This document shows, piece after piece, positions 50,552 through 53,335 of a DNA stretch of 64,000 nucleotides. The notes under the pieces were generated by a model that was given only the letters and a program-made list of their open reading frames with translations, searched no databases and had not been told where the DNA came from. The stretch's first letter is position 1, and each line of letters opens with the position of its first letter. Source of the stretch: Epibacterium ulvae (GTDB lineage: Bacteria; Pseudomonadota; Alphaproteobacteria; Rhodobacterales; Rhodobacteraceae). The position numbers were made by a program, and so were the translations under genes. Location: the NCBI RefSeq assembly GCF_018678075.1, contig NZ_JAHHIR010000097.1:1-64000 (forward strand). The letters are read 5' to 3'.

Positions 50552-51175
50552 ATGACCGCGCAACGTGGAATTTTTGACGTACAGGGGCTTACGATTGGCA
50601 TCATCCTCTGTTCGCTTGGGATCATATTTCTGACATCGGCCGGTTTGGTTACTGGGCAGGCGGCAGGCCTTGCCTTGCTGTTATCCTATGTCTTGCCCTG
50701 GGACTTTGGCGTGACTTTCTTTGCCGTCAGCGCGCCGTTTCTGGTGCTGGCCTGGCGCAGGCGCGGGCGGGTGTTCACATTTCGCACGTTGATCGTTGTC
50801 ATCGGCATCTCCCTCGCGGTGGAGGCCTTGGGCCGTGTGGTGATGATCGCCGACCACGGACGCCCCCTAGCGGCGCTGTTGGGGGGCATCTTGATTGGCA
50901 TCGGTGTGCTCTCGGTCTTTCGCCACAATGCATCCGCTGGCGGGCTGTCGATCCTGTCGCTGGTGATTGAAGAGAAGACCGGGATCAAAGCCGGTTGGGT
51001 GCAGTTGGGCGTCGACGCTCTGATCTTTTTGGCGGCCTGTTTTGTTCTGGCGCCGGGGCAAGTGTTTTACTCCTTTGTGGCGGCGGGGTTGATGAACCTG
51101 ATCATCATCTGGAATTTCGACATCCGACAGGCGCGCAGCGGCGGGCCGTTGGTCGAAGACAACGCCGGTTCCTGA
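50552..51175 (+). CDS. YitT-like membrane protein, first paralogue
   Basis: The 207-aa inner-membrane protein has five or six helices and the family motifs IFDVQGLTIGIILCSLGIIF, AGLVTGQAAGLALLLSYV and FRHNASAGGLSILSLVIEEK. The YitT family is of unknown function. The ATG has AAAGGA upstream. The neighbour at 51307 is a close paralogue, so this is a tandem duplication. Confidence 0.78.
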   Translation: MTAQRGIFDVQGLTIGIILCSLGIIFLTSAGLVTGQAAGLALLLSYVLPWDFGVTFFAVSAPFLVLAWRRRGRVFTFRTLIVVIGISLAVEALGRVVMIADHGRPLAALLGGILIGIGVLSVFRHNASAGGLSILSLVIEEKTGIKAGWVQLGVDALIFLAACFVLAPGQVFYSFVAAGLMNLIIIWNFDIRQARSGGPLVEDNAGS

Positions 51176-51306
51176 GGCGCGCCGTGCGGAAATCTGCGGC
51201 ATAATTGGTGAAAAGCACCGACAACTGTTGACAAGTCAACACTTTGGAGAGACCTAGAGCCTACTCCTATCCCCCACCGACTTCCTGTTTCAACATGAGG
51301 CATATC

Positions 51307-51909
51307 ATGCGTTCTCCGATTTCGTTTTACGATGTCCAAGGCATCTCCTTTGGCGTTTTAATGTGTTCCCTGGCGATGCTGTTCCTCAAATCTGCGGGGC
51401 TAGTGACCGGGCAATTGGCTGGTTTGGCGCTGCTCTTGTCCTATGTGGCCAACCTCAATTTTGGCGCGTTGTTCCTGTTGGTCAGCCTGCCGTTTTTTGT
51501 TCTGGCCTGGTTCAAACGCGGACCGGGTTTTACCCTGCGCACCATTGCCGCCGTGGTCGGGATCTCGCTTTTGGCGCCACAACTCGCGCGGTTCATTACC
51601 TTTGACAGTCTGGAGCCGATCATTGCTGCGGCCGTTGGCGGCGCCTGTGGCAGCATCGGGGTGATCGCCCTGTTCCGCCACAAGGCATCCGCTGGCGGCG
51701 GCACAATTCTGGCGCTGGTGGTGGAGCAGAAAACCGGGTTCAAGGCCGGGTGGTTTCAGCTGTGTGTGGATGCGGCGATTTTCCTCGGTGCGGCCTTTGT
51801 TCTACCGTGGAATTTGTTGATTGTATCGTTCCTGGGGGCAGCGGTGACCAATATGCTGATTGCCTGGAATTTCGACATCAGCCAGACGCGCGGCAAGTCG
51901 ACCGCGTAA
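51307..51909 (+). CDS. YitT-like membrane protein, second paralogue
   Basis: The 200-aa protein aligns throughout with the gene at 50552 (FYDVQGISFGVLMCSLAMLF, AGLVTGQLAGLALLLSYV, FRHKASAGGGTILALVVEQK). ATG 51307 is chosen because GAGG lies 6 bases upstream and the paralogue starts at the equivalent residue. Function unknown; the DAHP synthase leader begins 68 bases after the stop. Confidence 0.78.
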   Translation: MRSPISFYDVQGISFGVLMCSLAMLFLKSAGLVTGQLAGLALLLSYVANLNFGALFLLVSLPFFVLAWFKRGPGFTLRTIAAVVGISLLAPQLARFITFDSLEPIIAAAVGGACGSIGVIALFRHKASAGGGTILALVVEQKTGFKAGWFQLCVDAAIFLGAAFVLPWNLLIVSFLGAAVTNMLIAWNFDISQTRGKSTA

Positions 51910-51976
51910 GGGGTGCTGATTTTAAACGATAAATTTCCTGTCGACAGATCCGCGAATCTCCGCTAGCGTCACGGGC

Positions 51977-52054
51977 ATGACACAGACCTTCGCCACCTTC
52001 TGGTATTTTTATTATCCGCGCCACATGGCGGTCGGAGGATCTGTCGCGTTCTAA
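51977..52054 (+). CDS. Aromatic-rich leader peptide of the DAHP synthase gene
   Basis: A 25-codon frame starts MTQTFATFWYFYYPRHM and ends SVAF. Residues 8-13 read Phe-Trp-Tyr-Phe-Tyr-Tyr, and with Phe5 and Phe25 it has five Phe or more plus Trp and three Tyr. A ribosome short of charged tRNA for Phe, Trp or Tyr would stall at 51998-52015, right on the first strand of the hairpin set at 52015-52116. No strong ribosome site is visible upstream. Confidence 0.8.
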   Translation: MTQTFATFWYFYYPRHMAVGGSVAF

Positions 52055-52116
52055 AACCCTAAGAGAGAACGCAACATCCACACTAAACCGCCTCGCACCC
52101 GCAGGCGGTTTTTTTG
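52015..52116 (+). promoter_or_regulatory. Transcription attenuator before DAHP synthase
   Basis: Four strands can be drawn. Strand 1 (TCCGCGCC, 52015-52022) pairs with strand 2 (GGCGGTCGGA, 52027-52036, with a two-base bulge). Strand 3 (AAACCGCCT, 52085-52093) pairs with strand 4 (AGGCGGTTT, 52103-52111) and is followed by T to 52115, a terminator. Strand 2 GGCGGT (52027-52032) can instead pair with ACCGCC of strand 3 (52087-52092), an antiterminator. Ribosome stalling on the FWYFYY codons would mask strand 1, free strand 2 and allow synthesis of aroG. The exclusive pairings are seen; function is inferred. Confidence 0.8.
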
Positions 52117-52170
52117 TTTTCCGCCCCAAGGTCCCCGAGGCTCCGCACACTGAAATAAGGACGCCCCGAC

Positions 52171-53253: not shown

Positions 53254-53307
53254 GGGATCAGGTGGATCTACGTTTTTTCTCCCCCCTAGTAAGCCGGGGC
53301 ACCTTGG

Positions 53308-53335
53308 GCGCGCTTTGACAAGCGCGCTCTTTTTG
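53308..53335 (+). terminator. Terminator after DAHP synthase
   Basis: GCGCGCTT / AAGCGCGC with a TGAC loop, followed by TCTTTTT. Confidence 0.9.

Follow-up and report, generated by a model that had tools for sequence, protein, structure and literature searches.

Expression of a class I 3-deoxy-7-phosphoheptulonate (DAHP) synthase gene in Epibacterium ulvae is very likely controlled by a ribosome-mediated transcription attenuator lying ahead of it, a reading to which we give a probability of about 0.9. The window, the whole 64,000-nucleotide stretch of DNA analysed, carries an open reading frame that had been proposed in a sequence-only reading to be a 25-codon leader with Phe-Trp-Tyr-Phe-Tyr-Tyr. 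The leader and its aromatic block are present (Table 1), and the block holds one Trp, two Phe and three Tyr codons. The leader stop codon is 116 nt from the start of the gene, whose product matches both PF00793 (Pfam, E 3.3e-91, 305.4 bits against a cut-off of 25.5) and TIGR00034 (NCBIfam, E 4e-148, 492.7 bits against a cut-off of 173.2). The anatomy, conservation and folding energetics of the attenuator were observed here. Apart from the protector hairpin, which is clear in the window and weak in many relatives, every part of an attenuator that can be sought in sequence or in silico was found: a control-codon leader, a terminator, an antiterminator sharing strand 3 with it and, in the model described below, stalling that favours the antiterminator.

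Table 1. Features of the attenuator and the regulated gene in the window.
Feature	Sequence	Position	Strand	Basis or remark
Predicted -35 element	TCGACA	51941..51946	+	Sequence comparison
Predicted -10 element	TAGCGT	51964..51969	+	17 nt past the -35 element, 7 nt before the leader ATG
Leader peptide gene, 25 codons and stop	MTQTFATFWYFYYPRHMAVGGSVAF	51977..52054	+	ATG at 51977, TAA ends at 52054; read directly, conservation
Strand 1, predicted to pair with strand 2 when the ribosome is absent	CAGACCUUCGCCACC	51983..51997	+	Fold of window sequence; consensus core CGCC at 51991-51994 (alignment columns 15-18)
Aromatic control codons 8-13, Phe-Trp-Tyr-Phe-Tyr-Tyr	TTC TGG TAT TTT TAT TAT	51998..52015	+	Read directly
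Strand 2, core GGCGG	GGCGGUCGGAGGAUCUG	52027..52043	+	Fold; GGCGG invariant in 24/24 Rhodobacterales
Small hairpin over the leader stop codon, retained within the antiterminator fold		52046..52072	+	Fold
Strand 3, CCGCC, antiterminator partner of strand 2 or 5' arm of the terminator	AAACCGCCU	52085..52093	+	Fold and comparison
Strand 4 and U tract of the intrinsic terminator	AGGCGGUUU	52103..52115	+	Fold and comparison
Class I (AroFGH-type) DAHP synthase gene, 360 aa		52171..53253	+	Profile searches

This is the only class I DAHP synthase gene of the source genome, which also has one of class II at another site (L126, C66:97963-99273). Within 450 nt upstream of the class II gene no aromatic leader was found, and the genome may therefore hold two DAHP synthases that are controlled differently. 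Three other features of the window were noted. Tandem genes of the YitT membrane family (PF02588) lie directly upstream of the attenuator at 50552-51175 and 51244-51909. An inverted repeat, GCGCGCTTTGACAAGCGCGC, followed by T's at 53307-53334 on the 3' side of aroG is, judged by eye, probably aroG's own terminator. An L2-Alphaproteobacteria ribosomal protein leader was identified at 1044-1178 (Rfam, 47.9 bits against a cut-off of 37.8).

Folding of positions 51977-52120 gave -49.1 kcal/mol against a mean of -31.76 for dinucleotide shuffles (z -4.80), and 0/200 shuffles folded as low. The intrinsic terminator at 52085-52115 reads AAACCGCCT-cgcacccgc-AGGCGGTTT followed by TTTT. Strand 1 corresponds to codons 3-7 of the leader and strand 2 begins at codon 17. 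The sequence-only reading had placed the aromatic codons directly on strand 1. This description needs correction, as in the window fold and the consensus pairing most of them fall in the loop that separates strand 1 from strand 2. In the consensus fold of 24 Rhodobacterales sequences, CGCC pairs with GGCG, UGGU (which includes the Trp codon) pairs with GCCA, and the terminator forms; only UGG and one U of the aromatic block are paired. The protective 1:2 hairpin is clear in the window, but in many relatives, among them other Rhodobacterales, it is weak or missing. The strand 1 helix was better than 95% of shuffles in only 32/109 leaders.

When the leader was folded from codon 15 onward with strand 4 not yet made, strand 3 paired with the leader in 24/24 Rhodobacterales. 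Its partner was the GGCGG core in 18, a register overlapping the core in 4 and a G run just after the core in 2. A conserved downstream AGAUACC pairs with GGUCU of strand 2 in several of these sequences. A 10-base inverted repeat, CGACAGATCC / GGATCTGTCG (51942-51951 and 52037-52046), joins the -35 region to the end of strand 2. Its first copy would fall outside the predicted transcript, and by eye the repeat is present in L002 and absent in L003 and most others.

From these features we infer that the leader is translated, that transcription starts at its AUG or close by and can end early, and that starvation for each amino acid draws a response. RNA polymerase would start at or beside the leader AUG with the ribosome trailing. 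When charged Phe, Tyr and Trp tRNAs are ample, the ribosome would pass the aromatic codons and move onto or beyond strand 2, leaving strand 3 to pair with strand 4 and transcription to stop near 52115. When a charged aromatic tRNA is scarce, the ribosome would stall on the aromatic codons and occupy strand 1. The free GGCGG of strand 2 would then pair with CCGCC of strand 3 before strand 4 is synthesized, no terminator would form, and DAHP synthase would be transcribed.

To survey other genomes, up to 450 nt 5' of class I DAHP synthase genes was scanned for aromatic-rich open reading frames. Frames in which a run of 8 codons includes 6 or more aromatic residues were found in 91/165 real upstream regions and in 2/3300 shuffled ones. 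With at least 5 in 8, short frames were found in 120/165 real regions against 42/3300 dinucleotide shuffles. An aromatic leader ahead of DAHP synthase is far beyond chance. The leader frame proved to be conserved in relatives. The enzyme (E <= 1e-60) is present in 17/394 genomes of the window's family, and all 17 have the leader. In a sample of the phylum the enzyme is present in 219/397 genomes. A leader, defined by 5 or more aromatic residues in 8, or by 4 together with the terminator core and strand 2, was found in 125/165 loci from alphaproteobacteria, betaproteobacteria and Xanthomonadales, and by the same rule 40/165 are without one. The 165 loci consist of 80 named contigs, 45 loci from the enzyme searches of the source genome, its family and the phylum sample (some repeating named contigs) and 40 hand-selected upstream stretches (L127-L166, one or a few per family, among the matches listed). 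Because best matches came first and others were hand-chosen, the sample is biased and 125/165 is not a prevalence. The class II locus L126 was left out of every leader count, and removal of repeated upstream regions reduced the 125 leaders to 120 distinct ones. Co-occurrence of the leader, aromatic codons, terminator and antiterminator before the same gene in three proteobacterial groups supports the attenuator.

A covariance model was built from 24 distinct Rhodobacterales leaders, and it scores 117.4 bits at the window site. The 24-row alignment omits the divergent L095-L097 and the duplicate contigs L082, L086, L088, L091 and L093. Searching the 394 family genomes gave 26 matches at E <= 0.01. 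Fourteen, all at aroG loci, had E < 1e-20. The other 12 were weak (E 1e-4 to 0.009), one of them being the divergent aroG leader of G130 (E 1.2e-4), and the divergent aroG leaders of G138 and G234 were missed. The DNA at 5 (L182-L186) of the 11 remaining weak matches contains terminator-like hairpins. The source genome has a second weak match at C86:36431-36535 (E 0.02).

Codons 9-12 are aromatic in 95/96 cells of the 24 Rhodobacterales leaders, the exception being one Ser, and codon 9 is Trp in 24/24. Swaps between TTT and TTC, between TAT and TAC, and between Phe and Tyr are seen at the control codons and other U-rich codons are absent. The aromatic codons are thus conserved as codons rather than bases, which suggests that the leader is read as codons. 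Between clades the block is rearranged (YYFWYAY, FFFTGFFYF, FYFYFFW) yet still aromatic. Such conservation argues against the hairpin being merely the terminator of the upstream YitT-family gene with an accidental short frame beside it, an explanation we consider very improbable even though that gene is on the same strand and ends at 51909, with the hairpin ~175 nt further on. We rejected it because the leader and terminator are kept with other neighbors: both are present in Paracoccus versutus pTAV3, where the gene annotated upstream is oriented away from them. A rough longest-ORF rule also called the upstream neighbor opposite in 63/110 loci, although this rule is unreliable in GC-rich DNA, since it calls an opposite neighbor even for L002, the nearest relative. 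The pTAV3 locus (L190) and that of a Paracoccus sp. MA plasmid (L191) are aroG genes on large plasmids with a variant leader, SFYWFRC..QR; in the PLSDB table, which is incomplete, no feature is annotated over the leader in either.

Terminator-ending, mutually exclusive hairpins had been claimed to precede the DAHP synthase gene, and the folds, the class I profile match and the wider sample all bear this out. By a strict rule the terminator was present in 118/120 loci with a strong leader and in 0/125 control 120-nt stretches taken inside the gene. The strand 3:4 pairs adjoining the core covary. In the 107 of 120 leaders kept by rule, one such pair is formed in 107/107 (58 A-U, 48 G-C, 1 G-U), compared with 89 in the best of 2000 permutations, which ignore relatedness. 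Another is formed in 87/107 (best permutation 65), and one further out in 73/107 (best 68).

The strand 2:3 core of five pairs (GGCGG/CCGCC) is intact in 114/121 leaders, a count inflated by taking the strand 2 word as the best match in a 36-nt window. This set excludes L143 (wrong ORF picked) and L059 (no terminator core) and includes L190, L191 and L155, which fails the leader rule yet resembles a relative and was added by hand. Where strand 3 is CCGCU, strand 2 is AGCGG in 5/6 leaders, a compensatory change from G-C to A-U, and strand 4 is still GGCGG. Of the five compensated leaders, some belong to one group, Rhodobacterales with Paracoccus, and the rest to a second, family f10; all five could go back to a single event. 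Pairs of strands 2 and 3 adjoining the core show little excess: 57/107 (permutation mean 43.6, best 57), 58 (48.0, 60) and 47 (41.1, 48). Pairing energy between the leader tail and strand 3 was better than 95% of shuffles in 50/111 leaders (the 120 loci minus 2 without a terminator and minus duplicates). The strands are nearly invariant within Rhodobacterales, so covariation inside this order says little.

GGCGG lies 6-20 nt past the aromatic codons in 109/120 distinct leaders. Across the 120, the strand 2 core is in reading phase 2 in 98, phase 0 in 8 and phase 1 in 1; it lies over or past the stop codon in 2/120 and is absent by rule in 11/120. Because the word is kept across different reading phases and the peptide is not, the RNA word of strand 2 itself is under selection. 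We considered whether the leader, instead of terminating transcription, acts through translation (coupling, re-initiation or peptide arrest) or in trans as a small RNA or peptide. Products of attenuators are known to act in trans, as described for rnTrpL and peTrpL of Sinorhizobium (PMC10117765, PMC7298713). Against this stand the U-tract terminator, which is conserved and covaries, and the 116 nt from leader stop to gene start, which is far for re-initiation. Arrest by a specific peptide was rejected, as the peptide tail varies with reading phase and the RNA word is kept. Overall we regard such a mode of action in place of termination as improbable; the leader RNA or peptide may have an additional role in trans.

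Ribosome stalling was modelled by barring nucleotides under a parked ribosome from pairing and scoring the probability that the leader holds strand 3 before strand 4 is made. In the window the score was 0.03 without a ribosome. Placing the A site at codons 4-12 raised it to 0.92-1.00; it fell to 0.01 at codon 13 (the last aromatic codon) and was 0.01-0.34 over codons 14-24, while codon 25 gave 0.76 and the stop codon 0.51. A modelled stall at window codons 8-12 thus frees strand 2 to hold strand 3, which supports attenuation. Averaged over the 24 Rhodobacterales, codons 4-7 scored 0.78-0.89, codons 8-12 0.87-0.92, codon 13 0.77, codons 14-24 0.20-0.54 and the stop 0.55. In the model the drop after the aromatic block is clear, but codons 4-7 score nearly as high as the aromatic ones. 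The ribosome-free mean was 0.62 (range 0.03-1.00, with the window at the low end). The ribosome-free default would thus vary among species and is often already antiterminated in the model, which weakens the role of strand 1.

In 27 hand-picked representatives of other clades the mean score was 0.88 at the aromatic codons and 0.34 four to nine codons later, with 0.61 ribosome-free, 0.60 at the stop and 0.63 for a shuffled segment. The score at the aromatic codons exceeded the shuffled control in 23/27, and was below it in L024, L026, L032 and L069. As a control, E. coli trpL showed a similar pattern: it scored 0.08 both ribosome-free and at the stop, and its two Trp codons gave 0.44 and 0.81. 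When the full RNA was folded at equilibrium, the terminator was favored at every ribosome position (means 0.92-1.00), as it was for E. coli trpL. Since the terminator wins at equilibrium wherever the ribosome stands, the switch must be kinetic and act during transcription.

Codon content suggests that all three aromatic amino acids are sensed. F, W and Y all occur in 96/120 distinct leaders, F and Y only in 22, and F and W only in 2. It is also possible that the attenuator effectively responds to just one or two of them, Phe and Tyr for instance, and that the Trp codon is a pairing element or a weak sensor. The block in the window has a single Trp codon against two for Phe and three for Tyr, 22/120 leaders have no Trp, and the UGGU-GCCA pairing in the consensus offers a structural reason for the invariance of the Trp codon. 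However, Trp is found not only in 24/24 Rhodobacterales leaders but in 98/120 overall, at varying places within the block, and a modelled stall with Trp codon 9 of the window in the A site scores 0.98. We therefore think restricted sensing rather unlikely, though it is the most probable of the alternatives.

The leader also appears to lack a conventional ribosome binding site. All 24 Rhodobacterales have GACA (or TACAG) ending 29-30 nt upstream of the leader ATG. In 21/24 the distance from the end of a TAnnnT box to the ATG is 7 nt, and in 2 it is 6 nt; L094 deviates. Among 96 other leaders, a box matching TATAAT in at least 4/6 letters ends 5-11 nt before the start in 50, compared with 5 at 14-20 nt. 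A Shine-Dalgarno-like word precedes the leader within 18 nt in 2/120 and within 27 nt in 3/120, and is found around the DAHP synthase start in 70/120. With a -10 box 7 nt before the AUG and no Shine-Dalgarno sequence, the window leader probably starts a leaderless mRNA. Many leaders, not all, probably start at or very near the RNA 5' end; those of Oxalobacteraceae and Burkholderia-like bacteria seem by eye to have a longer 5' end.

The element was compared with known systems. Rfam gave no match at gathering score over the window leader or in sets of 17 and 15 loci, the 15 including the window's own; the best sub-threshold match was RNAI (23.9 bits against a cut-off of 47). No NCBIfam family matched 5 leader peptides (E <= 10) and no Pfam family matched 2 (E <= 0.01). 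Strong structure ahead of an amino acid synthesis gene might also be expected of a protein- or small-molecule-binding RNA, whether riboswitch or TRAP-like, with an unrelated small frame. Yet few alignment columns are invariant beyond those of the start codon, the Trp codon, the GGCGG/CCGCC strands and the U tract, and Rfam has no gathering-score match over the leader or in 31 further loci. The riboswitch was rejected on the lack of an Rfam match, and we find this kind of explanation scarcely credible.

No report of this element was found in the open literature searched, and six leader-peptide strings had no match there. The attenuator mechanism is known, and what was not found in Rfam, NCBIfam or the open literature searched is DAHP synthase as its target and a combined Phe/Trp/Tyr leader. 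The reading of several amino acids by one leader has precedents in ilv and thr. Classical leader-peptide attenuators are described for trp, his, leu, thr, ilv and pheA (PMC1183508), and according to PMC3766115 the His, Leu, Thr and Trp attenuators were in the Rfam of its day, with the Ile/Val and Phe ones outside. Like E. coli trpL and the classical attenuators, the window element has a short control-codon leader, alternative 2:3 and 3:4 hairpins and a U-tract terminator. It differs from them in the gene, in having three aromatics in one leader, in its GGCGG/CCGCC strands and in its probable leaderless start. An alphaproteobacterial attenuator whose leader opens a leaderless mRNA is trpL/rnTrpL of Sinorhizobium meliloti (PMC10117765). 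Unlike the window's DAHP synthase element it is a Trp attenuator upstream of trpE, and the likeness between the two is one of description.

Within the open literature searched, the nearest published relative is the uORFC-13-1 motif of Acholeplasma, which belongs to another phylum. The motif is a predicted uORF that contains one or more Phe codons and, together with a terminator, precedes the DAHP synthase gene aroF (PMC8632094). It differs in having 24 unique representatives and a U-run encoding at least one Phe, and is itself a prediction (PMC8632094). PMC5343134 describes control of DAHP synthases by TyrR and TrpR in gammaproteobacteria, best known from E. coli. These likewise tune DAHP synthase to aromatic supply, but are DNA-binding regulators.

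Presence or absence of the leader was placed on a quick tree of 120 proteins (110 with and 10 without it). Three changes account for the label on this tree; shuffled labels took 9.8 on average, and 0/500 shuffles were as low. Genes without a leader on the tree are those of Lonsdalea, Erwinia, a Neisseriaceae bacterium, several betaproteobacteria and one further genome; none of the enteric loci sampled (two Lonsdalea, one Erwinia) had an aromatic leader. One old origin of the leader with few losses fits the protein tree, several deep forks of which are unsettled. L011 and L026, titled Nocardioides marinus and Mycobacterium sp., have aroG with the leader and cluster with alphaproteobacteria on the tree; because of this grouping, the titles look wrong or the assemblies contaminated.

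Taken further, we lean somewhat towards an unnamed attenuator family that would predate the alpha-, beta- and Xanthomonadales split of class I DAHP synthase and serve as a standing control of entry into the aromatic pathway. One leader would read the charging of Phe, Tyr and Trp tRNAs, near-identical GGCGG strands 2 and 4 would compete for one CCGCC, and the frame would slide over the kept strands. The family would often be leaderless and would have been lost where TyrR/TrpR took over. If true, much of the Proteobacteria would control DAHP synthase through aromatic tRNA charging read by one peptide. The finding would add a gene of 20-25 codons and an RNA family missing from the searched family libraries. 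It would also provide a clean system for studying leaderless leaders and the way one attenuator integrates several amino acids, and a natural sensor part for strains producing aromatic amino acids.
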